From the NCBI GenBank assembly GCA_034521445.1, contig JAXHMM010000006.1:496001-560000 (forward strand): a stretch of DNA of 64,000 nt, read 5' to 3'. Positions within the stretch are counted from its first letter, which is position 1. Every line of letters starts with the position of its first letter. This stretch comes from Balneolaceae bacterium (lineage in GTDB: Bacteria; Bacteroidota; Rhodothermia; Balneolales; Balneolaceae). Positions 1,165-61,206 of the stretch are shown piece by piece. The notes below the pieces were generated by a model. That model worked only from the letters and a program-made list of their open reading frames with translations, ran no database searches and was not told the origin of the DNA. A program made the translations under genes and the position numbers.

Positions 1165-4100
1165 ATGAGCAAACAGTTCGAAGAAGTAAAGAAACTCAAC
1201 TACTCCAAACACGAGGTGGAAACCCTCCGCTGGTGGAAGGAGAACGACATCTTCCGCAAGAGCCTCAGCAGCCGCGAGGAGGGCATCCCGTTTACCTTCT
1301 ATGAGGGACCCCCGACGGCAAACGGCAAACCGGGCATCCACCACGTAATGTCGCGTACGGTGAAGGACCTCTTCTGCCGCTACAAGACCCTCAAGGGTTT
1401 CCGCGTGGAGCGCAAGGCGGGATGGGACACCCATGGCCTGCCGGTGGAGATCGAGGTTGAGAAGGAGCTGGGGCTCGAGGGACGCGAGCAGGTCGAGGCC
1501 TTCGGCATGGACAAGTACAACGAGAAGTGCCGCAGCAGCGTGCTGAAGTACAAGGACCTGTGGGACAAGCTCACCAATCGCATGGCTTACTGGGTGGACC
1601 TGGACGATCCCTATGTAACTTTTGAGAACGACTACATCGAGTCGGTCTGGTGGGCCTTCAAAACCCTCTACGAAAAAGGCCTGGTCTACCAGGGCTACAA
1701 GATCCAGTGGTACTCTCCCGGCAGCGGCACCGTGCTCTCCTCCCACGAGGTGAGTCTGGGCTACCAGGAGACGCAGGATCCCTCCATTTTTGTGAAGTTC
1801 CCGGTGGACGGCGAGGAGAAGACCTATTTCCTGGCCTGGACCACCACTCCGTGGACCATCGTCTCCAACATGGCCCTGGCCGTGAATCCCGACCTCGACT
1901 ACGTCCGCGTGCGCCTGTCGGAGGGCGGCCGGACCGAAGACTATATCCTGGCCAAGGAGTGCCTGGAGGAGGTGCTCGACCACGACTACGAGATCGTGGA
2001 GGAGTACCGCGGCAGCGACCTGGTCGGCCGCACCTACGAGCCTATTTTCGACTACGGCCGCCGGGCCCATCCCGAGGCGGACGCCTGGAAGGTGATCGAG
2101 GCCGATTACGTCTCCACCGAAGAGGGCACTGGCCTGGTGCACATCGCCCCGGCCTTCGGCGCCGACGACTACGACCACGCCATCGACAAGGGCATTCCCC
2201 TGTTCAACCCCATCGACGGGGACGGTCGCTTCACGGAGCAGGCCGGAGACTTCGCCGGCCAGTGGTTCAAGGACGCCGACAAGGAGATCGCCCGCGCCAT
2301 CAAGGACAGGCACATGATGTACAAGCACGAAACCTGCGTGCACAACTACCCCTTCGACTGGCGCAAGGGCACCCCGCTTATGCAGTTTCCGGTGGAGTCG
2401 TGGTTCATCCGCACCACCGACGTGAAGGACAAGATGGTCTCCTCCAACAGGGAGATCAACTGGAAGCCCCCCAGCACCGGCACTGGACGTTTCGGCACCT
2501 GGCTGGAGAACAACGTCGACTGGGCCGTCTCCCGCCAGCGCTACTGGGGCACCCCCATCCCCCTCTGGGTCAGCGACAAGGACCCGGATTACGTGGAGTG
2601 CATCGGCAGCGTAGAGGAGCTGCGCCGCAAGGCGGGGCTGCCGGAAGACAAGGAGATCGACCTGCACCGCCCGCACATCGACGGCATTACCTGGGAGGGG
2701 CCCAACGGCGGCACCATGCGCCGCATCCCCGACCTGCTGGACGTCTGGTTTGACTCCGGCTCCATGCCCTTCGCCCAGTGGCACTACCCCTTTGAGAACA
2801 AGGAGCTTTTCGACGAGAACTTTCCTGCCGATTTCATCGCCGAGGGGGTTGACCAGACCCGCGGGTGGTTCTATACCCTGCACGCCCTTGGCACCATGCT
2901 CTTCGACCAGCCCGCCTACCGCAACGTGGTTTCCAACGGGCTGGTGCTCGACGAGAACGGCGAGAAGATGAGCAAGTCGAAGGGCAATAGCGTGGAGCCC
3001 TTCGAGGTGATACAAAAATACGGGGCCGACACCGTCCGCTGGTATATGATGAGCAACTCTTCTCCCTGGGAGAACCTGCGTTTCAGCGAGGATGGACTGC
3101 AGGAGACCCAGCGCAAATTCTTCAACACCTTGGTGAACACCTACTCCTTTTTCGCGATGTACGCCAACATCGACGGCTTCACCTACGACGGCACGCCCAT
3201 CCCCGCCGGGGACCGCACGGAGATGGACCGCTGGATCATCTCGCGCGCCAACACCACCGTAAAGCTGGTGGACGAACACCTGGACGACTACGAGCCCACC
3301 AAGGCGGCGCGCGCCATCGAGGATTTCACCGAGGAGCTCAGCAACTGGTACGTGCGCCGCAACCGCCGGCGTTTCTGGAAGGAGGGCAAGAGCCTGGACA
3401 AGAAGGCCGCCTACCAGACCCTCTACGAATGCCTGATGGACCTGGCCAAACTTATCTCCCCCATCGCTCCCTACCTGGGCGAATGGCTCTTCCAGCGCCT
3501 CAACCAGGTTACGCAAAAAGACGAGGAGTCGGTGCACCTCTCCTTCTATCCTACGGTGGAGGAGACTGCCATCGACAAGCAGCTGGAGAACCGCATGCAG
3601 ATGGCGCGGCAGATCTCCTCCATGGTGCTCAGCCTGCGCAACCGCATCGAGATCAACGTGCGCCAGCCGCTGGCCCGCATCATCCTGCCCATCGAGAACG
3701 AGGAGGACCGCCAGGCTGTGGAGTCGATGAAGGACATTATTCTGGACGAGGTGAACGTTAAGGAGATCCAGTACGCGGACGACGACTCCGGCATCGTGGA
3801 GAAGTCGGCCAAGCCCAACTACCCTGTGCTGGGCAAGAAACTGGGCGAGAAGGTCAAGGCCCTGGCACCGCGCGTGAAGGAACTTACCACTGAAGAGATT
3901 ACGCAATACGAGCAGAGCGGCTCCATTGAAATCGACCTGGGCGGGGAGTACGGTACCGTGCGCCTGGGCAGCGAGGGACTTGAAATAAGCCGGACCGGCC
4001 TGGAAGGCTGGTCGGTGGAGACCGAGGGCGGGCTCAGCGTAGCCCTCGACACCGAGATGACGCCCGAACTGGAACGCGAGGGGTTGGCCCGCGAGTTTGT

Positions 4101-4341
4101 CAACCGCATCCAGAACATGCGCAAGGAGGCCGATTTCGAGGTGGTCGACCGCATCTGGATCGGTTTCGAAGGCTCCGGCCGTCTGGAGGAGGCCGTTGCG
4201 TCCATGGATGACTACATCCAACGGGAAACCCTCGCCGAAGAGATTCACAGCAAGAAGCTGGAGGTCTCGGATTTTGTCAAACAGTGGGAAATCGGTGACG
4301 AACCATGCACCATTTCCATCAGAAGAACCCCCAAACAATAA
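1165..4341 (+). CDS. ileS: Isoleucyl-tRNA synthetase (type 2)
   Basis: Class I synthetase of 1058 residues that charges tRNA-Ile. The HIGH signature appears as GIHH (residues 57-60, after PPTANGKP) and KMSKS at about 601-605; the editing domain lies between them. The PPTANG form and overall length place it in the long, eukaryote-like group, which is often less sensitive to mupirocin. In the Thermus enzyme of this type two CxxC pairs bind zinc; here the matching sites read SPGSGT (184-189) and FDWRKGT (397-403) with no cysteines. From memory, Bacteroides enzymes lack the first pair too. First gene of a probable operon with the DksA-like gene and lspA. Confidence 0.97.
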   Translation: MSKQFEEVKKLNYSKHEVETLRWWKENDIFRKSLSSREEGIPFTFYEGPPTANGKPGIHHVMSRTVKDLFCRYKTLKGFRVERKAGWDTHGLPVEIEVEKELGLEGREQVEAFGMDKYNEKCRSSVLKYKDLWDKLTNRMAYWVDLDDPYVTFENDYIESVWWAFKTLYEKGLVYQGYKIQWYSPGSGTVLSSHEVSLGYQETQDPSIFVKFPVDGEEKTYFLAWTTTPWTIVSNMALAVNPDLDYVRVRLSEGGRTEDYILAKECLEEVLDHDYEIVEEYRGSDLVGRTYEPIFDYGRRAHPEADAWKVIEADYVSTEEGTGLVHIAPAFGADDYDHAIDKGIPLFNPIDGDGRFTEQAGDFAGQWFKDADKEIARAIKDRHMMYKHETCVHNYPFDWRKGTPLMQFPVESWFIRTTDVKDKMVSSNREINWKPPSTGTGRFGTWLENNVDWAVSRQRYWGTPIPLWVSDKDPDYVECIGSVEELRRKAGLPEDKEIDLHRPHIDGITWEGPNGGTMRRIPDLLDVWFDSGSMPFAQWHYPFENKELFDENFPADFIAEGVDQTRGWFYTLHALGTMLFDQPAYRNVVSNGLVLDENGEKMSKSKGNSVEPFEVIQKYGADTVRWYMMSNSSPWENLRFSEDGLQETQRKFFNTLVNTYSFFAMYANIDGFTYDGTPIPAGDRTEMDRWIISRANTTVKLVDEHLDDYEPTKAARAIEDFTEELSNWYVRRNRRRFWKEGKSLDKKAAYQTLYECLMDLAKLISPIAPYLGEWLFQRLNQVTQKDEESVHLSFYPTVEETAIDKQLENRMQMARQISSMVLSLRNRIEINVRQPLARIILPIENEEDRQAVESMKDIILDEVNVKEIQYADDDSGIVEKSAKPNYPVLGKKLGEKVKALAPRVKELTTEEITQYEQSGSIEIDLGGEYGTVRLGSEGLEISRTGLEGWSVETEGGLSVALDTEMTPELEREGLAREFVNRIQNMRKEADFEVVDRIWIGFEGSGRLEEAVASMDDYIQRETLAEEIHSKKLEVSDFVKQWEIGDEPCTISIRRTPKQ

Positions 4342-44608: not shown

Positions 44609-44851
44609 AAATCCCTGCCCTGAATTATTTTGCTGTTCTCTTGCCTGCATTTGACGGTTGTTGCCGGTAAACCTACTAAGAAAATGAGTTTTATCAAGAT
44701 GTCCTCCTTCTGAGCTTCCCTGGGGTTCATGGAAAGGTGAGGAGTTAAGCCCGATTTGAATGCCACCCGTGCATTTGATATTGTGCAGGTGAACCTAACG
44801 GAGGCCGCACAGACTGACATTGCGCCGGTCATTCGATTCCAGACAAAAATC

Positions 44852-45772
44852 ATGCTGCTAAAACCTGATTTACTGTCCCAGCTGGCACCCCTCGAACTGA
44901 GGGCGCGCAAAATCGTGGAGGGATTCATCTCCGGCCTCCACAAGAGCCCCTACTACGGTTTCAGCGTGGAGTTTGCTGAGCACCGTCCCTACACACCCGG
45001 CGACGAGATCAAGCATATCGACTGGAAGGTCTATGCCAAGACCGAGCGCTACTACATCAAACAGTACGAGGAGGAGACCAACCTGCGCTGCTATGTAATG
45101 CTCGACACCAGCAGCTCCATGTACTACAAGTATTTCGGGGAGTGGACCAAGCTGCGCTACGGTATTCACTTCGCCGCCGCCCTCATGTACCTGATGCACC
45201 GCCAGCGGGATGCATGCGGACTGGTACCCTTCAGCGACGAGATGGAGTCTTTCATCCCGGCCAAGTCCTCCTACACCCATCTGCGGCAGGTATTCACCAT
45301 GCTGGAACAGCTGCTGGAAAAGGAAGACGAGCAGTCCGCCGGGCAGCGCAAGACCTCTTCGGCCAAGGTGATCCACGAGCTGGCTGAGCGGCTCAACCAC
45401 CGCAGCCTCGTGGTGCTGGTCACCGACTTATTTGAAAACGTGGACGACCACGAGAACCTGATATCCTCCCTCAAGCATCTGCGCCACCGCAAGCACGAGG
45501 TGCTGCTCTTCAACGTGATGGAGAAGAAGAGCGAGCGGGACCTGGACTTTCCTGACCGGCGCTTTCGTATGGAGGATATGGAAACGGGGGCATCCATGGA
45601 GGTACTTCCCGCGCAGGTACGCGAAGACTACAGGAAGAAGGTGGAGGAGTACATCCACCGCTTCAAAATGGCCTGCAGCGAATTCCAGATCGACTTCGAG
45701 CAGATCGACACCCAGCAGGACTTCGACCTGGCACTGCTGGCCTATCTCAACAAGCGCAAGAACCTGGGGTAG
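44852..45772 (+). CDS. DUF58 domain protein (vWA-like)
   Basis: About 306 residues. The DUF58 core is YGFSVEFAEHRPYTPGDEIKHIDWKVYAKTERYYIKQYEEE (written here as family landmarks at about residues 35-75), then CYVMLDTSSSMYY, a MIDAS-like DTSSS in a vWA fold. Such proteins usually partner with MoxR ATPases, but no moxR is in the window. The last 22 codons (IDTQQDFDLALLAYLNKRKNLG) recur as non-coding relics at 48317, 50810 and 53323 between downstream cassettes. The start was placed at 44852, directly before the family N-terminus. Confidence 0.86.
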   Translation: MLLKPDLLSQLAPLELRARKIVEGFISGLHKSPYYGFSVEFAEHRPYTPGDEIKHIDWKVYAKTERYYIKQYEEETNLRCYVMLDTSSSMYYKYFGEWTKLRYGIHFAAALMYLMHRQRDACGLVPFSDEMESFIPAKSSYTHLRQVFTMLEQLLEKEDEQSAGQRKTSSAKVIHELAERLNHRSLVVLVTDLFENVDDHENLISSLKHLRHRKHEVLLFNVMEKKSERDLDFPDRRFRMEDMETGASMEVLPAQVREDYRKKVEEYIHRFKMACSEFQIDFEQIDTQQDFDLALLAYLNKRKNLG

Positions 45773-45869
45773 TGGTTCTGAGCGGCCAAGAGGGGGGCTT
45801 CGGGGTGATTCAAGAATTGGCAATCAGTCCCTGCACACGAAATGAACATCGCCAATTGAGAAAGAAGAA

Positions 45870-47051
45870 TTACTCATTCATAATGATTTTTGTAACACGT
45901 ATGACCGGCACACCGGAGGAGTAGTCCGTGTAGTAGAGCCGGTTTTGATCATCTAAGTGTTTGGGAAAGAAGATAGTGGTTTCCAGCCGGGGTGTGAAGT
46001 CGTCTTCTATGGAAGTGTAGCCGAGATATTTCCCTTCCTTGTCAAGGAGCTCAATAGTGTAGGCATTCTTCTCTCCTTGTGATCCCTCCGCCGTTTGAAC
46101 AAAGTGAAGTACCCACTTGTCGTTTGCCAGCAGTGCTGTGGATCTGAGCCTTATCTGGTATACTATCTGGCTGGTATTTGGAGTCGCACTTGCCGTAACT
46201 AAATTTACTCTATTTTCTCTGTAGGACCTTCTATATTGCCAGTCCAGCATCTCGTAGGAATCTCTGCCTGTAAAATGGCCTTGAACCTCCCGGACCTCCC
46301 CGCTGTTAATGTTCACCAGGTATATGGAACCATCCGTAATTTCGTGGGTGATAGCTAGTATAGAGTCGTTTAGTTTTGCCAAATTATAATCTCCCCACAT
46401 AGCAAACCTGGCTTCCACGGGCTTTTCTTTGTCAAATTGCATATTGTCGTATACGTTAAAAAAGGAACGGATCCTTTCCCAGGAATAGCCATCTATCAGA
46501 TGTACGGGTTTGTCTTGGTAATCTACTGGATCAAGATCATCGGCATATTCGTAAATCCAAGGTGCTGAAATGGAGACACTGGCAAACTGCTCATTCGGCA
46601 GTGGGACTAAATTACTTGCCGTCCACGTTGGATGCTGCAAAGTCTGTGACTTCAAGGAATCTCCAAAATTAAAGAACTTCGTAAGACGCCGTAATCTGCC
46701 ATCATATACAATGAGTTCGTCGTTATTTCCAATAGCCATTGCTGTGATACCAATGAACTCTCCGGGCCCCCTGCCCCGCCTGCCGATATTTTTCAGATAT
46801 TTACCCTCGGGACCGAATACCCGGATGGAATTGTTCATGGTCGCGACATAGATTCGGTTCTCCGAGTCTGTCCGTATGTATCTGGGACCGCCGAACAGGT
46901 ACTCCTTGGGTGCATCCTCTTGATTGCCTATAACGAGCTGCTCCTCGAATGAAACCGAAAGTTCCTGGGCAAGTCCCTGATTTTGTAGGGCTAATAGTGC
47001 TGTGGCAATCAGAGAGAGAATAATTAAGGAATGAATCTTCCAAGGATACAT
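45870..47051 (-). CDS. Exported six-bladed beta-propeller protein, cassette 1
   Basis: A 393-residue protein with an N-terminal signal peptide (hydrophobic 8-28, ending GLAQ) and no lipobox. The body has repeated beta-propeller blades with NRIYVATMNNSIRVFGPEGKYL and the hallmark IGRRGRGPGEF turn, as in Bacteroidota six-bladed propellers of the BF3164/DUF5128 type. Role unknown; the family is often surface or periplasmic. Last gene of cassette 1 (thioredoxin-like, peptide, propeller), all intact here. The C-terminal SSGVPVIRVTKI block is shared by all three copies. Confidence 0.82.
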   Translation of the reverse strand: MYPWKIHSLIILSLIATALLALQNQGLAQELSVSFEEQLVIGNQEDAPKEYLFGGPRYIRTDSENRIYVATMNNSIRVFGPEGKYLKNIGRRGRGPGEFIGITAMAIGNNDELIVYDGRLRRLTKFFNFGDSLKSQTLQHPTWTASNLVPLPNEQFASVSISAPWIYEYADDLDPVDYQDKPVHLIDGYSWERIRSFFNVYDNMQFDKEKPVEARFAMWGDYNLAKLNDSILAITHEITDGSIYLVNINSGEVREVQGHFTGRDSYEMLDWQYRRSYRENRVNLVTASATPNTSQIVYQIRLRSTALLANDKWVLHFVQTAEGSQGEKNAYTIELLDKEGKYLGYTSIEDDFTPRLETTIFFPKHLDDQNRLYYTDYSSGVPVIRVTKIIMNE

Positions 47052-47080
47052 TGGCAGGCCTGGCTTGCATTATTTAGGGA

Positions 47081-47126
47081 AAGCTGAGTCTACTCATTGT
47101 AAATGTTACAATGAGTAGACTAGCTT
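47081..47126 (-). repeat. Intercistronic inverted repeat, cassette 1
   Basis: AGTCTACTCATTGTAA and TTACAATGAGTAGACT form a perfect 16-bp stem around a 3-nt loop, extended by AAGCT/AGCTT across a one-base bulge. It lies between the peptide and propeller genes. There is no T-run, so it looks more like an mRNA processing or 3'-end protection element than a full terminator. A second 8-bp hairpin (GAAAGATC/GATCTTTC) follows the peptide gene at 47146-47168. Confidence 0.8.
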
Positions 47127-47179
47127 CAGGATTATTCTAAATCCAGAAAGATCAACTCATGATCTTTCAATGGATTTGC

Positions 47180-47461
47180 TTACGGGCAATTGTATGCTTC
47201 ACCCCCCGGTCCCAATATAAGCTGGCAATTCAGGGGTGGATCTAAATCGTGATTATAATCACAGGGGTTATAAAATCCCCATGGTTGACCGCCCACCTCG
47301 CAAGCTGCTATACTCCCACAATGGTAACATGGATTGTATTCACTTGGTTCTTCCGGCCCCGATTGCCATGAATAGACATTGGAGACGGTAAACGAAGTCA
47401 TACCGAAGGTAAAGACAAGTGCCGATAGGATTATCAGAGCTTTCGATTTTTTAAATAACAT
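47180..47461 (-). CDS. Small exported six-cysteine peptide, cassette 1
   Basis: A 93-residue protein: Lys-rich start, a hydrophobic leader (about 8-26) ending near SNVYSW, then an acidic core with six cysteines at 45, 48, 54, 67, 79 and 92 (CYHCGS, then ACE, PCD, NCQ, NCP). The pattern implies up to three disulfides. The leader and its NVYS stretch loosely recall the NVEALA-type small peptides found next to propeller genes in Bacteroides, without the NVEALA motif. It lies 23 bp after the thioredoxin-like gene. Function unknown. Confidence 0.75.
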   Translation of the reverse strand: MLFKKSKALIILSALVFTFGMTSFTVSNVYSWQSGPEEPSEYNPCYHCGSIAACEVGGQPWGFYNPCDYNHDLDPPLNCQLILGPGGEAYNCP

Positions 47462-47484
47462 GGCGGTACCTCTTTTGATTTGTA

Positions 47485-48099
47485 TTAGGATGCGCGAGAA
47501 TCCAGAATGGAAGCGAGCTCATTCAGGATGTTCTCTTTATCTTCTACCGGTGTCATAGCTCCTTTGGGTAACTGTACCCTGAACATCACCTGTTCAGCGG
47601 TTTTATCGATCACGATCAGTTGACCGTCGACAGTCTCATTATGGAAAGAAGTAAGCCTTGGCGGCAGAAAGGAAGTGACACTGTACAGTTTTGGGAGCTC
47701 GAAATCTGCGACGAGGGCAAACTGCCGTGCATATTGTTCCGTCTCCCCATGAAACCATATGACCTGGTCCAGTTCCAGGTTGGAAGTGGTGTCGTTCAAC
47801 AATCCTACATATTCATCAACCTCGTTCAGACAATTTCCGCAAGCTGCAGCAGGCATCAGGTACAATGCCATGACCCTCTTTGTTGAATCGCCCACATCGG
47901 TCAGCGAAGGGACATCCTCAGGTGGTTCATTCGGGATTTTAAAGCTATAGGATGAGGTATCCAGTTGATCCTCAGTCTGATAGTAGTAATCGGAATTACT
48001 TGGTTCGGTTGAGTCTGTGGCCGGAATCAGGGAGAGGATGAAAAACACGATTCCCCCGCAACACAATAGAAGTGCGATTATTTTGTCTCTAAATTTCAT
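47485..48099 (-). CDS. Membrane-anchored thioredoxin-like protein, cassette 1
   Basis: A 204-residue protein with one N-terminal transmembrane segment (about 7-26) and an extracytoplasmic domain. A CxxC site (CGNC, 87-90) in MALYLMPAAACGNCLNEVDE sits at the strand-helix junction expected of a thioredoxin fold; LPPRLTSFHNETVDGQLIVIDK follows as the later beta strands. Length and layout fit an anchored thiol oxidoreductase. It is first in the cassette and could form or reshuffle the disulfides of the six-cysteine peptide encoded next (inference). Nearly identical in three copies. Confidence 0.72.
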   Translation of the reverse strand: MKFRDKIIALLLCCGGIVFFILSLIPATDSTEPSNSDYYYQTEDQLDTSSYSFKIPNEPPEDVPSLTDVGDSTKRVMALYLMPAAACGNCLNEVDEYVGLLNDTTSNLELDQVIWFHGETEQYARQFALVADFELPKLYSVTSFLPPRLTSFHNETVDGQLIVIDKTAEQVMFRVQLPKGAMTPVEDKENILNELASILDSRAS

Positions 48100-48128
48100 A
48101 AGGCGAATCTTTGCTTCGCTCTCTCTTA

Positions 48129-48196
48129 ACCCTGATTCAGGGTAAAAAAAATAACCCTATATGCAAGATATTCCTAAATTTACGTAAATATACGTA
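48129..48196 (-). promoter_or_regulatory. Upstream regulatory region of cassette 1
   Basis: Two elements precede the thioredoxin-like gene. A perfect inverted repeat ACCCTGA-T-TCAGGGT lies at 48129-48143. At 48162-48196 a block reads TGCAAGA on the plus strand, then TTTACGTA and TATACGTA starting 10 bp apart. The second block recurs upstream of the peptide gene at 61206, so it is probably a promoter/activator site. No TAnnTTTG box is present. Confidence 0.6.
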
Positions 48197-48316
48197 CTCA
48201 AGTAGTAGGTTGAAGAATGAGGGATAAATGGTGTAACAGAATGAGCTCGAGTAGTTTATGGGGAAGATGCCTGGTAATAAACCCCTTTCAGTAATGACTC
48301 CGGAATAGTTTTTACA

Positions 48317-48385
48317 GACACCCTGCAGGACTTCGACCTGGCCCTGCTGGCCTATCTCAACAAGTGGAAAAACCTGGGGTAATGG
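48317..48385 (+). repeat. DUF58 gene 3'-end relic R1
   Basis: About 68 bp align with the last 22 codons, stop and 2-3 bases after the DUF58 gene (45707-45775), with roughly six differences. The frame still reads TDTLQDFDLALLAYLNKWKNLG and stop. Sequence on both sides is unrelated to DUF58. It separates cassette 1 from cassette 2. Confidence 0.9.
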
Positions 48386-48408
48386 TCAGTGACCGTCGAC
48401 CCATAGAA

Positions 48409-49581
48409 TTACTCTTCCATAACTATTTTAGTAACGCGGATGACGGGTACTCCAGAGGAGTAGTCCGCGTAATAGAGCTGGTTTTGATTGTCCAGGTGCA
48501 TGGCTACAAATACTGGGGAATCATCCTGCCGGGTGGTAAAATCGTCGCGAATGGGAGTGTAGCCAAGATAATTTCCATCCTTGTCAATAAATTCAATATT
48601 GTAGGTAGTGTTATTTCCTTCCGCAGTTTGTACAAAGTGAAGCAACCACTTATTGTTAGCCAGTAATGCTCTAGATCTGAGTTTAATTTGATACACTAAC
48701 GTGCTGGTATTGGGGGTTGCGCTTGCTGTAACCATGTTGTAGCGATTTTCATGATAAGATCTTCTATACTGCCATTCCAGTATCTCGTAGGAGTCATGTC
48801 CCGCAAAGTGGCCTTGGACCTCCCGGACGTACCCGCTCTTAGTATTCACCAGATATATGGAACCGTCTGATATTTTATGTGTAATAGCCAGTGTGGTGTC
48901 GTTAAGTTTTGCCAGTTGATAATCCCCCCCCATGGCAAATCGGGCTTCCACTGGCTCTTCTTTGTCAAACATCATATGGTCATAGACATTAAAAAGGGAA
49001 CGGGTCTTTTCCCAAGAATCACCGTCTATCAAATGTATGAGTCTATCTTTGTAATCAACGAAGTCAATATCCGCAACTTCATAAATCCAAGGGAATTGGA
49101 TTTCAACTGAGGCAAACTGATTATTTGGAAGTGGGACTATATCGCTCCCAGTCCAGTCCGGATGAGTCAAGTTCAGCGACTTCAAGGAATCCCCGAAATT
49201 GTAGAACCAGGTCAGACGCCCCAGCCTGCCATCATATGCAATAAGCTCATCGTTTTTTCCGACAGCTATAGCTGAAATGGATATAAACTCTCCGGGCCCT
49301 TTGCCCCGTCGCCCAATGTTCTTCAGATATTTCCCGTCCGGACTGAATACCCGGATGGAATTATTCATGGTCGTGATATAGATTCGGTTCTCGGAATCGG
49401 TCCGTATGTATCTGGGGCCGCCGAACAGGTATTCTGCCGGTGGGTTATTTTGATTGCCAATTACGAGCTGTTCCTCAAAGGTGACCGATCGCTCTTGGGC
49501 GGCTCCCTGATTTTGTAGGAATAATACTCCTGCAATAATGATACTTAAAATAGTGAAATAACGAATCGTCAAAGAGTACAC
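48409..49581 (-). CDS. Exported six-bladed beta-propeller protein, cassette 2
   Basis: About 390 residues, clearly paralogous to the cassette 1 propeller (same blade order, IGRRGKGPGEF, IYDG-like AYDGRLGRLTWF, C-terminal SSGVPVIRVTKIVMEE) but divergent in most blade surfaces. I place the start at a GTG at 49581, where the signal peptide (TILSIIIAGVLFLQNQGAAQ) matches copy 1; an upstream ATG at 49638 lies inside the intercistronic hairpin and adds an unlike N-terminus. Its upstream peptide gene is frameshifted. Confidence 0.78.
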   Translation of the reverse strand: MYSLTIRYFTILSIIIAGVLFLQNQGAAQERSVTFEEQLVIGNQNNPPAEYLFGGPRYIRTDSENRIYITTMNNSIRVFSPDGKYLKNIGRRGKGPGEFISISAIAVGKNDELIAYDGRLGRLTWFYNFGDSLKSLNLTHPDWTGSDIVPLPNNQFASVEIQFPWIYEVADIDFVDYKDRLIHLIDGDSWEKTRSLFNVYDHMMFDKEEPVEARFAMGGDYQLAKLNDTTLAITHKISDGSIYLVNTKSGYVREVQGHFAGHDSYEILEWQYRRSYHENRYNMVTASATPNTSTLVYQIKLRSRALLANNKWLLHFVQTAEGNNTTYNIEFIDKDGNYLGYTPIRDDFTTRQDDSPVFVAMHLDNQNQLYYADYSSGVPVIRVTKIVMEE

Positions 49582-49620
49582 GACAAGTCTTTTGGCATAT
49601 ATTGAAAAAAAGTAGTTGCA

Positions 49621-49650
49621 CCCACCCATTGCGGACATTCAATGAGTGGG
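49621..49650 (-). repeat. Intercistronic inverted repeat, cassette 2
   Basis: CCCACCCATTG and CAATGAGTGGG form an 11-bp stem with one mismatch (a G-U pair in the minus-strand RNA) around 8 nt. It has the same place as the hairpin of cassette 1. A T7 run follows about 12 nt later. Confidence 0.65.
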
Positions 49651-49677
49651 CGAACTATGAAATTGCGATCAATTAAA

Positions 49678-49954
49678 TTATGGACAATCGGTTAGTCCTT
49701 CATCAGGCCCTAACTCAAGCTGGCAATTTTGAGGCGGGTCTTCTTCGTCGTCATAGTCACAGGGATTGTAGAAACCCCAAGGTTGACCACCCAGCGCACA
49801 AGCTATATAACTTCCACAATGATAACAGGGATTATATTCTCCCGGTGGGTCCGTCTGCCACGGGGTAAACATTGGAGACGGTAAACGAAGTCATACCGAA
49901 GGTAAAGACAAGTGCCGATAGGATTATCAGCGCTTTCGATTTTTTAAATAACAT
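49678..49954 (-). pseudogene. Six-cysteine peptide gene of cassette 2, frameshifted
   Basis: From the ATG at 49954 the leader is nearly identical to copy 1 through SNVY. One extra base in a run of C then shifts the frame. The core (CYHCGSYIACALGGQPWGFY and four further residues-pattern cysteines) continues in the other frame to the stop at 49678 and keeps all six cysteines. Either a recent inactivating insertion or a sequencing error in a homopolymer. Confidence 0.75.
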
Positions 49955-49977
49955 GGCGGTACCTCTTTTGATTTGTG

Positions 49978-50592
49978 TTAGGATGCGCGAGAATCCAGAA
50001 TGGAAGCGAGCTCATTCAGGATGTTCTCTTTATCTTCTACCGGTGTCATAGCTCCTTTGGGTAACTGTACCCTGAACATCACCTGTTCAGCGGTTTTATC
50101 GATCACGATCAGTTGACCGTCGACAGTCTCATTATGGAAAGAAGTAAGCCTTGGCGGCAGAAAGGAAGTGACACTGTACAGTTTTGGGAGCTCGAAATCT
50201 GCGACGAGGGCAAACTGCCGTGCATATTGTTCCGTCTCCCCATGAAACCATATGACCTGGTCCAGTTCCAGGTTGGAAGTGGTGTCGTTCAACAATCCTA
50301 CATATTCATCAACCTCGTTCAGACAATTTCCGCAAGCTGCAGCAGGCATCAGGTACAATGCCATGACCCTCTTTGTTGAATCGCCCACATCGGTCAGCGA
50401 AGGGACATCCTCAGGTGGTTCATTCGGGATTTTAAAGCTATAGGATGAGGTATCCAATTGATCCTCAGTCTGATAGTAGTAATCGGAATTCCTTGGTTCG
50501 GATGAGTCGGTGGCCGGAATCAGGGAGAGGGTGAAAAACACGATTCCCCCGCAACACAATAGAAGTGCGATTATTTTGTCTCTAAATTTCAT
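49978..50592 (-). CDS. Membrane-anchored thioredoxin-like protein, cassette 2
   Basis: Differs from the cassette 1 copy by only three residues (Thr for Ile at about 21, Ser for Thr at 31, Arg for Ser at 34). The transmembrane anchor and CGNC site are intact. Near-identity against divergent neighbours points to recent duplication or gene conversion of this segment. Confidence 0.72.
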   Translation of the reverse strand: MKFRDKIIALLLCCGGIVFFTLSLIPATDSSEPRNSDYYYQTEDQLDTSSYSFKIPNEPPEDVPSLTDVGDSTKRVMALYLMPAAACGNCLNEVDEYVGLLNDTTSNLELDQVIWFHGETEQYARQFALVADFELPKLYSVTSFLPPRLTSFHNETVDGQLIVIDKTAEQVMFRVQLPKGAMTPVEDKENILNELASILDSRAS

Positions 50593-50622
50593 AAGGCGAA
50601 TCTTTTACTTCGCTCTCTCTTA

Positions 50623-50689
50623 ACCCTGATTCAGGGTAAGAAAATAACCCTATATGCAAGATATTCCTAAATTTACGTAATTATACGTA
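50623..50689 (-). promoter_or_regulatory. Upstream regulatory region of cassette 2
   Basis: Same layout as cassette 1: inverted repeat ACCCTGA-T-TCAGGGT at 50623-50637 and, at 50655-50689, TGCAAGA followed by TTTACGTA and TATACGTA with 10-bp spacing. A single base differs between the two half sites. Confidence 0.6.
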
Positions 50690-50809
50690 CTCAAGTAGTA
50701 GGTTGAAGAATGAGGGATAAATGGTGTAACAGAATGAGCTCGAGTGGTTTATGGGGATGATGCCTGGTAATAAACCGCTTTCAGTAATGACTCCGGAATA
50801 GTTTTTACA

Positions 50810-50878
50810 GACACCCTGCAGGACTTCGACCTAGCCCTGCTGGCCTATCTCAACAAGCGGAAAAATCTGGGGTAATGG
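50810..50878 (+). repeat. DUF58 gene 3'-end relic R2
   Basis: Second copy of the DUF58 tail; reads TDTLQDFDLALLAYLNKRKNLG and stop. It differs from R1 by a few bases and restores the CGG codon for Arg. Separates cassette 2 from cassette 3. Confidence 0.9.
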
Positions 50879-50901
50879 TCAGTGACCGTCGACCCATATA
50901 A

Positions 50902-52064
50902 TTACTCTTCCATAACTATTTTAGTAACGCGGATGACGGGTACTCCGGAGGAGTAGTCTACATAGTAGAGCTGGTCTAGATCATCCAAGTGTTTGGGATA
51001 GAATTTCTGTTTTAGATCCATAATAGTTGTAAAATCATCATTTATAGGGATATATCCGAGGTAGTTTCCTCCCTGGTCAATAAACTCCATATAAGATGAA
51101 CTGGTACCTCCATTCGCTGTTTGAACAAAGTTGAGTCCCCACTTGTCATTGGTCAGCAAAGCTCGAGACTCAAGTTTTTTTTGAAAGACCACTTGTTGAT
51201 TTCCTCCTAATATTACAATTCCAACTCGTTCATCTGCATATACAAACTTATTATCCAATCCAGCACTACATAGGGTTCCATGCCTGTAAAGCGTTCGCAG
51301 TACCGTTGACTACGCTGTTTTTCAAATTCAAAAGGTATATTGAACCATCATAGATTTGGTTGGTGAGGGCGATGGTTGAATCGTTTAGCATCCCTATTCT
51401 ATAACCGCCTCTTGAGAAATGAGCCTCTATTGGCATATTCATATCAAACATATGGTTTGATACCTTGTAATATGAGCGAATACGCTTTGAAAAACTGTTA
51501 TCTACTATATGCAATAAAGAATCACCAAGATTAAGGGCATCATATTCACCTGCATATTGATATATCCAGGCTTGTTCAGGGAAGCGGTTACATACCGTTC
51601 CCTATCCTTTATAGGGAATATCTGTGCTCTCCCATCCAAGCAGGGTGTGAGGCGTTACGGGACTCCAAGGAATCACCTAAATTATAGAATATTGAAACGC
51701 GTCTTGATCTACCATCATAAATGATAAGTTCATCGTGAATGCCAATTGCCATACCTGATATAGCAATGAATTCTCCTGGCCCTCTTCCTCGTCTGCCTAC
51801 CGTTTTTAGATACTTGCCATCTGGATCATATATCCGGATGGTGTTGTTCATGGTTGCTACATAGATATTATACTTAGAGTCTGTTTCAATGAACTTGGGC
51901 CCGCCGAATAGGTATTCCTTGGGTGCACTCTGTTGATCGCCAAGGACTAATTGCTCGTCAAAATTCACCGTTAACTCTTGGGCAAATCCGGGCTGATTGG
52001 AGCTTAATATTACTATCAAGATAAAATTACAGGCTACAATAAGACGGAATTGCCAAGGACTCAT
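50902..52064 (-). pseudogene. Beta-propeller gene of cassette 3, multiply frameshifted
   Basis: Three frames together cover a full propeller. An N-terminal part (52064 to about 51609) has signal peptide, GRRGRGPGEF and IYDGRSRRVSIFYN. A middle part (about 51514-51266) has SIYLLNLKN. A C-terminal part (51258-50902) ends SSGVPVIRVTKIVMEE. At least two frameshifts and a stop separate them, so no functional product is expected. It is the most diverged of the three propellers. Confidence 0.85.
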
Positions 52065-52148
52065 TGATATTTCTCAGTGTGATTTTTAAGATTCAATCGT
52101 TTCTCTTTTTCTGGTGGGTTCTTGGTGAAGAGTTATAGCATGTCCTAT

Positions 52149-52168
52149 AAAAACAGGGGGATGTTTTT
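52149..52168 (-). repeat. Intercistronic hairpin, cassette 3
   Basis: AAAAACA and TGTTTTT form a 7-bp stem just after the peptide stop; on the minus strand the second arm ends in TTTTT, so this one resembles a weak terminator. The position matches the inverted repeats of the other cassettes. Confidence 0.55.
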
Positions 52169-52179
52169 CCTAACTCCGA

Positions 52180-52467
52180 TTATGGACAGTCCACAAGTTC
52201 ATCATCACCGTTTCCAACTCCCCAAAATATACAGTACTCTGGTGTTCCATATTCACTTGGTTGTATCGTACAATCCGAGTTGTAAACGCCATAAGGTTGG
52301 CCGCCAGTAAGACATGCTGAATAACTTCCACAGTGGTAACAAGGGTCAGAAGTCTCCGGGTCCTCTATTTGCCATGAATAGACATTGGAGACGGTAAACG
52401 AAGTCAGTCCGAATGTAAAGACCAGCGCGGAAAGGATGACCAGCGCTTTCGATTTTTTAAATAACAT
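52180..52467 (-). CDS. Small exported six-cysteine peptide, cassette 3
   Basis: A 95-residue protein. The leader (1-32) is almost identical to copy 1, ending SNVYSWQ. The core keeps CYHCGS and six cysteines (43, 46, 52, 66, 79, 94), but the loops between the later cysteines are different in length and sequence (TIQPSEYGTPEY, IFWGVGNGDDELVD). Conserved leader with diversified core is typical of polymorphic secreted peptides. Its own propeller is a pseudogene. Confidence 0.75.
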   Translation of the reverse strand: MLFKKSKALVILSALVFTFGLTSFTVSNVYSWQIEDPETSDPCYHCGSYSACLTGGQPYGVYNSDCTIQPSEYGTPEYCIFWGVGNGDDELVDCP

Positions 52468-52490
52468 GGCGGTACCTCTTTTGATTTGTG

Positions 52491-53105
52491 TTAGGATGCG
52501 CGAGAATCCAGAATGGAAGCGAGCTCATTCAGGATGTTCTCTTTATCTTCTACCGGTGTCATAGCTCCTTTGGGTAACTGTACCCTGAACATCACCTGTT
52601 CAGCGGTTTTATCGATCACGATCAGTTGACCGTCGACAGTCTCATTATGGAAAGAAGTAAGCCTTGGCGGCAGAAAGGAAGTGACACTGTACAGTTTTGG
52701 GAGCTCGAAATCTGCTACGAGGGCAAACTGCCGTGCATATTGTTCCGTCTCCCCATGAAACCTTATGACCTGGTCCAGTTCCAGGTTGGAAGTGGTGTCG
52801 TTCAACAATCCTACATATTCATCAACCTCGTTCAGACAATTTCCGCAAGCTGCAGCAGGCATCAGGTACAATGCCATGACCCTCTTTGTTGAATCGCCCA
52901 CATCGGTCAGCGAAGGGACATCCTCAGGTGGTTCATTCGGGATTTTAAAGCTATAGGATGAGGTATCCAGTTGATCCTCAGTCTGATAGTAGTAATCGGA
53001 ATTCCTTGGTTCGGATGAGTCGGTGGCCGGAATCAGGGAGAGGATGAAAAACACGATTCCCCCGCAACACAATAGAAGTGCGATTATTTTGTCTCTAAAT
53101 TTCAT
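52491..53105 (-). CDS. Membrane-anchored thioredoxin-like protein, cassette 3
   Basis: Differs from copy 2 at two positions (Ile at about 21 and Arg for Trp in the QVIRFH segment). CGNC and the anchor are intact. Third near-identical copy. Confidence 0.72.
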   Translation of the reverse strand: MKFRDKIIALLLCCGGIVFFILSLIPATDSSEPRNSDYYYQTEDQLDTSSYSFKIPNEPPEDVPSLTDVGDSTKRVMALYLMPAAACGNCLNEVDEYVGLLNDTTSNLELDQVIRFHGETEQYARQFALVADFELPKLYSVTSFLPPRLTSFHNETVDGQLIVIDKTAEQVMFRVQLPKGAMTPVEDKENILNELASILDSRAS

Positions 53106-53134
53106 AAGGCGAATCTTTACTTCGCTCTCTCTTA

Positions 53135-53202
53135 ACCCTGATTCAGGGTAAAAAAAATAACCCTATATGCAAGATATTCCTAAATTTACGTAATTATACG
53201 TA
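53135..53202 (-). promoter_or_regulatory. Upstream regulatory region of cassette 3
   Basis: Inverted repeat ACCCTGA-T-TCAGGGT at 53135-53149 and the TGCAAGA ... TTTACGTA ... TATACGTA block at 53168-53202, as in cassettes 1 and 2. Confidence 0.6.
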
Positions 53203-53322
53203 CTCAAGTAGTAGGTTGAAGAATGAGGGATAAATGGTGTAACAGAATGAGCTCGAGTGGTTTATGGGGATGATGCCTGGTAATAAACCGCTTTCAGTAA
53301 TGACTCCGGAATAGTTTTTACA

Positions 53323-53390
53323 GACACCCTGCAGGACTTCGACCTAGCCCTGCTGGCCTATCTCAACAAGCGGAAAAATCTGGGATAGGG
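53323..53390 (+). repeat. DUF58 gene 3'-end relic R3
   Basis: Third copy of the DUF58 tail, ending in a TAG stop at 53386-53388 followed by GGTGATTCAA, the same short string that lies about 30 bp after the real DUF58 gene (near 45803). It marks the outer edge of the cassette array, next to the toxin-antitoxin operon. Confidence 0.88.
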
Positions 53391-53394
53391 TGAT

Positions 53395-53760
53395 TCAACC
53401 CGGTAGATCGGATAGCTTGATACGGTCGTAGGATCCTCTCTTATCCTCGGGGTGTGGCTCAATGCCCAGAATGGTAATTTCTTTTCGATTTGGGCCATAC
53501 GTCCAGAAGATACGCCTGGCTTTCTGACCCTGGTCGAGGTACGATTGCCATATCTTCATATCGTACTTGTTGCTGAGAGCCTCAATCTCATGAGTTCGCA
53601 GGCCGGGATGACGTGGGTTGTTACTCAGGAACCGAAGGGTTTTGGCAAGTTTGTTGAACAATTCTATCTCCTGAGTGTCCATCTCACCCGTTTTTTTCTT
53701 ATCAAGAAGAGAGTCCCAGAAATTTTTCATTCCCGGGACTCCCATGCGTATGGCAAACAT
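53395..53760 (-). CDS. RelE/ParE-like toxin-family protein
   Basis: A 121-residue basic protein. The N-terminal helices (KNFWDSLLDKKKTGEMDTQEI) and LSNNPRHPGLRTHEI lead to a beta core KIWQSYLDQGQKARRIFWTYGPNRKEITILGIEPHPED, listed here as landmarks of the Bacteroidota toxin-like family with a RelE/YoeB-like fold. Ribosome-dependent mRNA cleavage is plausible but not shown. The start at 53760 has GGAG at good spacing; M11 is an alternative. It lies 12 bp after the antitoxin gene. Confidence 0.75.
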   Translation of the reverse strand: MFAIRMGVPGMKNFWDSLLDKKKTGEMDTQEIELFNKLAKTLRFLSNNPRHPGLRTHEIEALSNKYDMKIWQSYLDQGQKARRIFWTYGPNRKEITILGIEPHPEDKRGSYDRIKLSDLPG

Positions 53761-53772
53761 GATTGCTCCAGG

Positions 53773-54030
53773 TTAGTCGAGGAGCTCCTCCAGTTCATCC
53801 ATGTCGATCGGATCCGATACCTCTCCTTCTTTATACTTGGTTATGGCTTTGTCCATCATTTCCAGCGTATTTCGAGAAATTTCGTCCGGGTGAACCAGCT
53901 CGCGCGGACTCAGTTCGATGGTACCGTCCTCATGCTCGGTAACATGGTAGTACGTAGTCCGTGCCCCTCGAATGGTTATTCGTTTTTTGGAGTCCAACTT
54001 TGCGTTGTACTCCCTCACAAGGTTGTCCAT
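53773..54030 (-). CDS. AbrB/SpoVT-like antitoxin
   Basis: About 85 residues: KLDSKKRITIRG and TYYHVTEHEDGTIELSPREL form a swapped-hairpin-like AbrB DNA-binding domain, followed by an acidic C-terminal tail (SDPIDMDELEELLD) that could wrap the toxin. The start was set at 54030, not 54123, because AGGAGG stands 5-6 bp upstream, a rare strong Shine-Dalgarno site for this genome. First gene of the pair. Confidence 0.78.
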   Translation of the reverse strand: MDNLVREYNAKLDSKKRITIRGARTTYYHVTEHEDGTIELSPRELVHPDEISRNTLEMMDKAITKYKEGEVSDPIDMDELEELLD

Positions 54031-54108
54031 AATGGCCTCCTGAACAGCGTGTCTGTAATTATTATAGTGCTGCCCTCTTTGTCTGAGGTTGCTTTTAATG
54101 TGGGAATA

Positions 54109-54120
54109 TGGGAATTCCCA
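54109..54120. promoter_or_regulatory. Palindromic operator candidate of the toxin-antitoxin operon
   Basis: TGGGAATTCCCA is a perfect 12-bp palindrome about 80 bp upstream of the antitoxin start, with a further TGGGAAT half site at 54101. Autorepression by the AbrB-like antitoxin is the simplest reading. Confidence 0.45.
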
Positions 54121-54171
54121 CACAAATATTACGTAGATATCCTGAATAATTCAACCCTGAGGCAAACAGGT

Positions 54172-57972: not shown

Positions 57973-59061
57973 TTAAAAACTCATAATGACAATGTCATTG
58001 TCTCCATCAGTATGGTCTATGCCGACCAGATGGTTTTCATGTATTTCATAAATATTAAACAGGGGGGGGACCAGGATTTTTCCCATCTTTTTTGAATGCC
58101 TGTCTACCCTCAATATGATACCATAGTTTTTATTCGCTGTGAATAAAGTGTAGTAAAAATGATCTTCGGAAGGAATAAAATTTATGAAAAACGGGAGTTC
58201 CATACCCTCCGCCAACACTTCAGGATCTTGTACATTACTCCCTTGAATTACCGATTTAAGAAAATTAATCTCTTCTTCGCCTGCCATCGGCTTAGGATAA
58301 CCCGATAAATTAAATTCTTCAGATGATCCATTCTGGGTGTTTACCGTGGTTATAGAAAGAGTTGCAGAGTTCGAATAGTAAAATTGTACATCTTTCATTT
58401 TCCATATTGTACTTGCTCCAAGGGGATTTTCTCTTCTAACCCCATTTGACTCAAATGTGTCGCTTCCCGGCATATCAAACTGGTGTCGCTGCAGGTGGAA
58501 ATCATCATCCAGTCGATATACCTCAATATCATTATTTTCCCCACTGGCGATCTGAACGCTCTTAAACACTCCCAGATATCCATCATCTGTCTCATACAGA
58601 GCATTTAAATTACGGGAGTCATAATCAGGCAGTCTTATTTCACGCTCTGGCTCAAATCCACCTTCCAGGATTGAGTAAATGGATACTACTCCAGAACGGC
58701 CATCATAGACATGAAGTCGATTATCTCTCCCAATATGGATTTGATTTATGGCAAAAAACTCATTCGGGCCGCCTCCTGACCCTCCGATACTATCCAAAAG
58801 GGCACCATTGAGCTCCATTAAATTTAAAGTCCAGTTAGAAGCATCAACTACCACCATCCGTCCCTCACCATCCATAGTCAGATCCAGGGGTGAATACACA
58901 TTCGTGGTGGAAGTTTCAATTCGAGTACTATCTTGAAGAATGATCTCTTCAACTTCCGAGATGAATTGATCAAACGAATGCTCATTTTTGTCTGGATCGT
59001 TGGAACAGGAGATCGCAATTAACCCAATTGCAAGATATTTAATGTATTTAGAATACTTCAT
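57973..59061 (-). CDS. Six-bladed beta-propeller lipoprotein, cassette 4
   Basis: About 362 residues with a lipobox (GLIAISC), so membrane-anchored, unlike the propellers of cassettes 1-3. Blades include MVVVDASNWTLNLMELNG, SIGGSGGGPNEFF (the GxGPxEF turn) and RLHVYDGRSGVVSIYSI. The start at 59061 was chosen because it yields a normal signal; the longer frame starts inside an 18-bp inverted repeat. Encoded after the four-cysteine peptide gene at 59128-59352. Confidence 0.8.
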   Translation of the reverse strand: MKYSKYIKYLAIGLIAISCSNDPDKNEHSFDQFISEVEEIILQDSTRIETSTTNVYSPLDLTMDGEGRMVVVDASNWTLNLMELNGALLDSIGGSGGGPNEFFAINQIHIGRDNRLHVYDGRSGVVSIYSILEGGFEPEREIRLPDYDSRNLNALYETDDGYLGVFKSVQIASGENNDIEVYRLDDDFHLQRHQFDMPGSDTFESNGVRRENPLGASTIWKMKDVQFYYSNSATLSITTVNTQNGSSEEFNLSGYPKPMAGEEEINFLKSVIQGSNVQDPEVLAEGMELPFFINFIPSEDHFYYTLFTANKNYGIILRVDRHSKKMGKILVPPLFNIYEIHENHLVGIDHTDGDNDIVIMSF

Positions 59062-59070
59062 ATTTAAAAC

Positions 59071-59111
59071 ATAGTATTGGGCATCCAATTTACTTGGATG
59101 CCCAATACTAT
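59071..59111 (-). repeat. Intercistronic inverted repeat, cassette 4
   Basis: A perfect 18-bp inverted repeat (ATAGTATTGGGCATCCAA with its complement) around a 5-nt loop lies between peptide and propeller. On the minus strand it is followed by GTTTTAAAT before the propeller ATG. Confidence 0.85.
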
Positions 59112-59127
59112 AGTAAACAATCTTGGA

Positions 59128-59352
59128 TTAATTTTCACCAGGTTGTTCTATACAGATGTCATATGAGGCTTGACACGCGTTGTCCCATACTGCGTGTTCA
59201 GTGGCTTGGAATAACCAATGGTAAGGATTACCAGCTTCACACTGGTCAAGGATCACTTGGCACATTTCTTCGGAGGCCTCAGTAGAATTTGTGATTCCCA
59301 CAATCAAAACTGGGGTCATCATTAATGTGAGCATGATAGTTTTTATTTTCAT
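59128..59352 (-). CDS. Small exported four-cysteine peptide, cassette 4
   Basis: A 74-residue protein: signal peptide (about 1-27, ending EAS) and a mature core of about 47 residues with two CX6C pairs (31/38 and 60/67: CQVILDQC and CQASYDIC). This suggests two disulfides bracketing two helices. Unrelated in sequence to the six-cysteine peptides of cassettes 1-3, but in the same position relative to a propeller gene. The 59353-59427 gap is AT-rich with no clear promoter. Confidence 0.7.
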   Translation of the reverse strand: MKIKTIMLTLMMTPVLIVGITNSTEASEEMCQVILDQCEAGNPYHWLFQATEHAVWDNACQASYDICIEQPGEN

Positions 59353-59427: not shown

Positions 59428-59700
59428 CTACTCATCATATTGAGTGTTCCTAGTTTTCAGGTTTTTAACTATTCCAGAACGGCCATCATAGATATAGAGT
59501 CGATTATCTCTCCCAATATGGATTTGATTTATGGCAAAAAACTCATTCGGGCCGCCTCCTGACCCTCCGATACTATCCAAAAGGGCACCATTGAGCTCCA
59601 TTAAATTTAAAGTCCAGTTAGAAGCATCAACTACCACCATCCGTCTCTCACCATCCATAGTCAGATCCAGGGGTGAATACACATTCGTGGTGGAGAGCAA
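59428..59700 (-). pseudogene. Fragment of a beta-propeller gene (N-terminal blades)
   Basis: About 226 bp at 59472-59697 are nearly identical to 58691-58916 of the cassette 4 propeller and encode TTNVYSPLDLTMDGERRMV through YDGRSGIV. Its 5' end is fused to a histidine-kinase tail relic through a short shared GGTGGA string; its 3' end runs into unrelated sequence and a stop. Remnant of another cassette. Confidence 0.85.
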
Positions 59701-59746
59701 GCCCGGCCGGGGGATGTGCTTCTGGTTCAGCCTGCCGGGATACTAA
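59690..59746 (+). repeat. Relic of a histidine-kinase gene 3' end
   Basis: The plus strand encodes VESKPGRGMCFWFSLPGY and stop, matching the end of the kinase at 57304 (VESEPGRGTSFWFSLPASG) at protein level but diverged at DNA level. Its stop overlaps the stop of the convergent cassette 5 propeller. Same arrangement as the DUF58 relics of the other locus. Confidence 0.8.
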
Positions 59747-60825
59747 TGTTCCTGTCGGTCAAACACATATATAGCAGGATGTGATATGCTATTTAGATAA
59801 ACTCGTCCATCCGATTGAGAAATAAACGACATCGAAATCGACTCGTTACCTTTGGTTCTGTCCCGGATATCATATCTGCCCTCTACTTCGTAATTATTAT
59901 TGGTATCAATGATAGTCAATGTATTGTCGATGATTGCATAGAGATGCCCGCTTTCTGAGAGTTTGAAATCGGTGATATATCTTCGTACCGCGCCTTCCAT
60001 CCGGCCAATATTATCTACTGGGATTGCTTCAGGATTGTCTATGTCGCTAAAGGAGTCAGCGGTAAACTGGATGGTCGAGGTCAGATTTAGATTATCGTCG
60101 AACAGAAATAGATAGGGGAATCCGGGATAAGCGGCCATAGTCACACCGTTGGTAGCATCTATTTGGAATGTATTATAACCTGATGGCTCTTTGCCCATAG
60201 GAATCAATCTTGGAAGGAGTGAATCGTATTCAGCATACGGCTCTGCATTATTATATACCTGGGTCAGGTTTTTCGCACCGGACCTGGTTGATGCAAAAAT
60301 GTAGTTATTAGAGGCAGCCAGGTCGTCAAGTCCCACATATATATTGAATGATTTTATATAGTTGAAAGTATCATATTCATATTGATTGACTCGTGATAGT
60401 GACCCGTCTGCAATAAAAATGTGCTCCTCACTGGAAAAGATAGCACTTACACTCTCAAATTCTCCAGGCCCTCTTCCTTTCCGTCCAATCGCATCAATTA
60501 TTGTATTTGAAGTGTCGGCGATTAATACTGTCGGTTGCCGTAGATCGGTGATGTACACCCTCTCACCCTTTGCAAAAGTATTCGTCGGTGAGGTCAACAG
60601 GAGATCCGCATCTACTGAATCCTGCTGAATGATGTTTTCTGGACCAAGGGAAATGTCCGTAATCGGAATCTGATCCAAATTGATTGTATTTAAACTTGTT
60701 TCGTCAATTAGAGTCTTCAATACTTCTGACTCTGTGCCGAATTGCATGGAAGAATTACTTTCGCAACTGACGATAAAAGTTATACTCAGGATGCAGAAAA
60801 GGATGCTTTTAAACTGAATAGTCAT
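59743..60825 (-). CDS. Six-bladed beta-propeller lipoprotein, cassette 5
   Basis: About 360 residues with a lipobox signal (SITFIVSC). Propeller blades include RVYITDLRQPTVLIAD, AIGRKGRGPGEFESV and HIFIADGSLSRVNQYEYD. Divergent from the other propellers but with the same GPGEF turn. An upstream ATG at 60837 is possible. Preceded by the six-cysteine peptide gene at 60931-61206 and an inverted repeat. Its stop touches the kinase relic. Confidence 0.8.
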   Translation of the reverse strand: MTIQFKSILFCILSITFIVSCESNSSMQFGTESEVLKTLIDETSLNTINLDQIPITDISLGPENIIQQDSVDADLLLTSPTNTFAKGERVYITDLRQPTVLIADTSNTIIDAIGRKGRGPGEFESVSAIFSSEEHIFIADGSLSRVNQYEYDTFNYIKSFNIYVGLDDLAASNNYIFASTRSGAKNLTQVYNNAEPYAEYDSLLPRLIPMGKEPSGYNTFQIDATNGVTMAAYPGFPYLFLFDDNLNLTSTIQFTADSFSDIDNPEAIPVDNIGRMEGAVRRYITDFKLSESGHLYAIIDNTLTIIDTNNNYEVEGRYDIRDRTKGNESISMSFISQSDGRVYLNSISHPAIYVFDRQEH

Positions 60826-60872
60826 GATGCGGACCATTTGATAAAAAACTCAAATATAATTTACTAAATAGA

Positions 60873-60912
60873 AATGAGCTACCCTGCAACTTTACTTGCC
60901 TGGTAGCTCATT
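60873..60912 (-). repeat. Intercistronic inverted repeat, cassette 5
   Basis: AATGAGCTACC pairs with GGTAGCTCATT, with an inner GCAA/TTGC helix, between the peptide and propeller genes. The arms are unrelated in sequence to those of cassettes 1-4. Confidence 0.8.
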
Positions 60913-60930
60913 GATGATGTCCATAGAAGA

Positions 60931-61206
60931 CTAGTTAATCATGGGAACATTACATGTTTCGACACCATCACAAATGGTGCCGGTGAAATCTCCCTGCCCC
61001 TCAGCTACATCTATTAGCCCGTCTCCACAATCCATATTCATATCCCAATTTGTATCAGTCTGTATGAATACAACTTCGCAGCTTTCCGATGCATCACAAT
61101 AGGTCATACACATTGGATCACCAGGTTGATACGCTTCGATTGGAGTTGTCACTAAAAAAAGAGCTATAAGTGCAATTGCATTCAGAAATTTTGTCTTGGT
61201 AGTCAT
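60931..61206 (-). CDS. Small exported six-cysteine peptide, cassette 5
   Basis: A 91-residue protein with signal peptide (about 1-25, ending IEA) and an acidic core with cysteines at 33, 37, 43, 60, 79 and 85 (CMTYC, SCE, DCG, ICD, TCN). The spacing differs from the CYHCGS family of cassettes 1-3. It is followed by the inverted repeat and propeller 5. The promoter region shares the TGCAAGA/TTTACGTA block with cassettes 1-3. Confidence 0.72.
   Translation of the reverse strand: MTTKTKFLNAIALIALFLVTTPIEAYQPGDPMCMTYCDASESCEVVFIQTDTNWDMNMDCGDGLIDVAEGQGDFTGTICDGVETCNVPMIN

Follow-up and report, generated by a model that had tools for sequence, protein, structure and literature searches.

Which features of a repeated gene cassette in Balneolaceae are functionally linked, and what might its three products do together? 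We analysed a stretch of DNA of 64,000 nucleotides (the window), in which the region from 45.8 to 53.4 kb contains three minus-strand units, each encoding a thioredoxin-like (Trx-like) protein, then an exported peptide, then a beta-propeller, with unit A (52.5 kb) first in transcription order, followed by B (50 kb) and C (47.5 kb) (Table 1). An earlier sequence-only reading had described these as three tandem cassettes, and its gene order and coordinates hold, but only unit C is intact throughout (45870-48099); the peptide gene of unit B is frameshifted, possibly by a sequencing error, and the propeller gene of unit A is broken. Upstream of unit A, on the minus strand, are two small ORFs (53395-54123) with no Pfam match.

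Table 1. Coordinates of the cassette genes and associated features in the window
Feature	Position	Strand
Unit A Trx-like protein, anchored, CGNC	52491..53105	-
Unit A exported peptide, six Cys, intact	52180..52467	-
Unit A propeller, broken, three frames (51609-52064, 51266-51514, 50902-51258)	50902..52064	-
Unit B Trx-like protein, anchored, CGNC	49978..50592	-
Unit B peptide, frameshift where leader (frame 49832-49954) meets core (frame 49678-49872)	49678..49954	-
Unit B propeller, intact, start uncertain	48409..49638	-
Unit C Trx-like protein, anchored, CGNC	47485..48099	-
Unit C exported peptide, six Cys, intact	47180..47461	-
Unit C propeller, Pfam DUF5128, without Cys	45870..47051	-
DUF58 gene 3'-end copy, unit A boundary	53323..53383	-
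DUF58 gene 3'-end copy, unit B boundary	50810..50870	-
DUF58 gene 3'-end copy, unit C boundary	48317..48377	-
Native DUF58 gene, source of duplicated 3' end	44756..45772	+
Related Trx-less pair: peptide with six Cys (60931-61206), propeller (59743-60837)	59743..61206	-
Related Trx-less pair: peptide with four Cys (59128-59352), propeller (57973-59088)	57973..59352	-

The anchor and CGNC site that the sequence-only reading described in the Trx-like protein are present in all three units: the protein has 204 amino acids, and its hydrophobic anchor is N-terminal. The family has no Pfam or NCBIfam match over the cut-off, and its profile matches in the PDB are weak (E at least 0.15; ResA, E 0.15). 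In a structure model the order of elements and the CxxC fit the strand-CxxC-helix arrangement and beta-alpha order of a thioredoxin fold, but pLDDT was only 46; models of the Trx-like protein and the propeller reached 46-47, with the window proteins and one locus only as input. The peptide had been described as exported and carrying six cysteines. This is true of the intact copies in units A and C, and the core frame of unit B also encodes six, in identical order, although its reading frame is broken. Like the Trx-like family, the peptides match no Pfam or NCBIfam model over the cut-off; their profile has no useful match in the PDB, and they have no invariant tryptophan. Had the cysteines been unconserved, the earlier reading would have been undermined; instead, they are the conserved positions in peptides whose remaining columns are ~22% identical, and a CxxC plus further cysteines occurs in all 23 peptides used for the distance comparison described below. 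The third gene does encode a propeller, with window copies matching DUF5128 (PF17170; 44.2 and 50 bits, E 2e-11 and 3e-13; cut-off 22.9 bits), but the unit A copy is split over three frames.

A copy of the 3' end of the DUF58 gene, ~61 bp long, lies at each unit boundary (native counterpart, 45707-45767), indicating that the array arose by tandem duplication of a segment that took in that end. Aligned to one another, the units are 86-100% identical (mostly 95-100%) over a stretch that begins with the DUF58 fragment, includes the Trx gene and runs as far as the peptide leader, a uniformity that assembly of near-identical repeats may exaggerate and that could be partly artefact. Across the peptide core, spacer and propeller, identity drops sharply to 32-86%, placing the boundary between constant and variable parts within the peptide gene; units A and B are again 93% identical at the extreme end. 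Estimates by the Nei-Gojobori method follow the same division: dS was 0.014 for each pair of Trx genes and 1.15 (dN 0.18) for the propellers of units B and C, and the peptide cores gave pS of 0.77-0.84 against pN of 0.19-0.33. By these figures, the peptide cores and propellers diverged long ago and evolve under purifying selection, and the front half was recently homogenised or spread. With near-identical Trx genes beside long-diverged cores and propellers, the units are not three equal copies. We infer that recombination occurs in the constant part and that peptide core and propeller act as a single block.

The same genome contains Trx homologues at a complete triad (L022), at a decayed locus (L015) and at L014, where Trx and peptide are intact and the propeller is interrupted by an insertion (~2850-4130) that, judged by eye, seems to bear a transposase. 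Peptide-propeller pairs without Trx occur in the window (Table 1), with a propeller fragment between the two (59428-59700, minus strand), and at a further locus (L024). Propeller homologues are numerous (30 matches across the genome), many of them solitary; at two loci on different contigs (L011 and L012; C2 and C17) the same propeller scored identically, perhaps reflecting a duplicated region or assembly redundancy.

With a profile built from the Trx-like protein only (A1, then A2), relatives turned up in 13 of the order's 129 genomes, in more across the class, and, at E<=1e-6, in 7 of 297 genomes of Acidobacteriota, the phylum of a Vicinamibacteraceae locus (L062). The triad with matching gene order is present in Acidobacteriota; the order is conserved across families and in two phyla. 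Trx homologues picked by sequence alone adjoin peptide and propeller in several families, which does not bear out the refuting case named by the sequence-only reading, homologues mostly apart. An automatic detector placed peptide and propeller both downstream in 23 of 33 loci; it missed loci at contig ends, decayed copies, L132 with its different gene order, L014 with its insertion and L068 with its long start. At six loci (L022, L065, L069, L070, L073, L074), small AraC-type or LuxR-type proteins consisting only of a helix-turn-helix (HTH) are encoded immediately upstream of Trx.

Rather than lying mostly apart, the genes proved tightly associated. A propeller gene lay within 4 kb of all 29 Trx-family loci (matches at E<1e-7 plus own-genome loci, provided that their downstream sequence reached 2 kb or more) against 0 of 26 loci for ordinary thioredoxins in the same class (Fisher 3e-16), a comparison in which the 2-kb filter and the exclusion from the controls of L133 and L134, which context places in the family, were post hoc choices. 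With own-genome and seed loci removed, the propeller adjoined 25 of 25 Trx-family loci (4e-15). General TlpA-like matches (WCPPC) in other Bacteroidota had no such neighbours. Neighbouring genes can ride along in a tandem duplication, and the three genes might travel jointly without any joint function; however, the conservation of their order in two phyla and the co-occurrence counts nearly refute this explanation, which we consider very improbable.

The cysteines of the Trx-like proteins suggest what they act on. The CxxC is kept in 32 of 39 aligned members; five others, all with peptides (L071, L072, L127, L216, L218), keep only the first cysteine. Every aligned peptide-bearing locus retains that cysteine or both. 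HSTR replaces the CxxC in the remaining two aligned members and one relative (loci L220, L221 and L223); at these loci the propeller gene directly adjoins or overlaps that of Trx, its frame opening no later than the Trx stop codon, and no peptide fits; we count this loss of both cysteines as one evolutionary event. Selenocysteine, raised by an in-frame TGA reported in three Acidobacteriota matches, was rejected, since the active site reads HSTR and the stop codon lies at the end of the protein. The intact window propellers contain no cysteine, and the median beyond residue 40 is zero in 32 family propellers, leaving the peptide as the obvious thiol substrate. The earlier proposal that the Trx-like protein oxidises or isomerises the peptide's disulfides therefore gains comparative support, from these propellers and from the loss of the active-site cysteines where the peptide is absent, but oxidation is the doubtful half of it, because five peptide-bearing members retain the first cysteine only.

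A second set of comparisons links the peptide to the propeller. Across 23 loci, peptide distance correlated with propeller distance when Trx was controlled (partial Mantel r=0.56, p=0.0005) and not with Trx distance when the propeller was controlled (r=-0.11, p=0.93), the input being short divergent peptides from related loci. Between loci L074 and L076, the peptide-propeller DNA is 96-100% identical (mostly 99-100%) and the adjoining Trx 88-97%. Peptide and propeller are best read as a matched pair. Of the suggestion that the propeller binds, displays or exports the peptide, binding gains comparative support from this tracking of divergence, but nothing here supports export.

Together, these comparisons point to a module in which a disulfide-folded exported peptide would be paired with a matched six-bladed propeller, with the Trx-like protein acting on the peptide; we give this reading about an even chance of being correct. 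Judged from the sequences, a signal sequence would direct export of the peptide, the Trx-like protein would be anchored in the inner membrane and face outward, and the propeller would be either exported or a lipoprotein. The Trx-like protein would then act on the peptide, its sole cysteine-rich partner, making or shuffling disulfides; the members that have lost the second cysteine and kept the first favour exchange or isomerisation of disulfides over net oxidation. Once folded, the peptide may bind its own propeller, as a ligand or as a small subunit. Recombination would keep the upstream region, Trx and leader uniform, and core and propeller would vary as the block seen in the unit alignment. 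Because the cassettes are patchily distributed, multicopy, diverged and in many cases decayed, we favour recognition or signalling at the cell envelope, rather than a part in core metabolism, as the output of the complex.

More specific outputs can be weighed against the same evidence. The folded peptide might be secreted as a signal that its matched propeller reads, the output being the small DNA-binding proteins encoded upstream of some cassettes; peptide and propeller vary in step, and HTH-only proteins stand directly upstream at six loci. However, the window array has no HTH gene, its two upstream ORFs being without Pfam match, and the propellers have no transmembrane signalling part, making this proposal unlikely. 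Matched variable pairs, patchy distribution and tandem arrays are also what an antibacterial peptide toxin with a propeller immunity protein would show, but the intact unit A peptide lies beside a broken propeller and solitary propellers are numerous, and we regard antagonism as improbable.

Methylamine dehydrogenase (MADH) offers a third model. The enzyme has a propeller subunit, and MauD has a Trx-like fold. Its operon (MauB, MauA, MauD, MauE) resembles the cassette in combining a propeller, a disulfide-rich small exported chain and a Trx-like maturation protein. MauE and MauD are maturation proteins (PMC7794033), and the MADH beta subunit has six disulfides (PMC7876137). By analogy, a crosslinked, possibly cofactor-bearing peptide could sit on a propeller large subunit, with the Trx-like protein in the role of MauD. 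The parts list agrees, but the propeller family differs, no family match to any Mau protein was obtained (the Pfam/NCBIfam models of the MADH large and small subunits and of MauD included), no tryptophan is invariant in the peptides, and the paralogues are many, diverged and decayed; a two-subunit enzyme of this kind is accordingly unlikely. For the proposed action of the Trx-like protein on the peptide, Mau-type redox proteins provide a precedent: candidate RiPP families from decRiPPter contain mauE/mauD, and these proteins were proposed to modify the precursor peptides (PMC7794033). Those families are from Streptomyces, with no propeller mentioned (PMC7794033).

Another likeness in layout, raised by the sequence-only reading, is to NVEALA peptides of Bacteroidia, which are small, exported and cysteine-containing, each beside a DUF5128/TolB-like propeller lipoprotein, in tandem arrays. 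One such array in G424 includes a CTSC lipoprotein whose profile match to the Trx family described here is marginal (hhalign Prob 77), and one pair of units in the G424 arrays is similar in upstream region and leader (72/86%) and unlike in core and propeller (39/37%). We take this as resemblance only: the window peptides lack an NVEALA match or motif and each window unit has its own anchored Trx, none of 16 peptides matched NVEALA (PF14055) at E<=1, and the window genome has no match. DUF6520 (PF20130) peptides resemble ours in being small, exported, cysteine-containing and adjacent to a thiol-redox membrane protein, but that protein was MauE, not Trx, in 9 of 9 loci examined (L169-L177), and no MauE-like ORF was found at the Trx-family loci searched. 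P0002 did not match DUF6520; two relatives among the 16 peptides of A3 did so weakly (best E 0.003), with no match in the window genome. In six of the DUF6520 loci MauE is fused to a domain of ~350 aa that has no Pfam match; the idea that this partner is a homologous propeller was not supported, as it had no detectable match to window-type propellers. Among PDB sequences, the propeller profile matched, with others, NHLRC2 and SOQ1, in which a Trx-like domain is fused to an NHL propeller (PMC6107167), but these are eukaryotic single proteins without a cysteine-rich peptide.

Literature searches, with most subscription papers outside their coverage, returned no description of the triad, in line with the earlier impression that the combination is undescribed, and nothing on NVEALA or DUF6520. 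The module is real, recurrent and apparently undescribed, the support for its mechanism coming from comparison alone.

Tentatively, and as a possibility rather than an expectation, peptide core and propeller may form matched pairs for recognition, exchanged as blocks by recombination, with the upstream region, maturation protein and leader in front of them held in common; the result would be a diversifying envelope recognition system in Bacteroidota and Acidobacteriota. The module recurs across phyla, though its Trx-like and peptide families are unmatched in Pfam and NCBIfam over the cut-off. An abundant propeller family would gain a testable role, as the partner of a peptide, and a dedicated thiol protein a testable substrate. 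The module may also help to account for the unexplained NVEALA and DUF6520 peptides.
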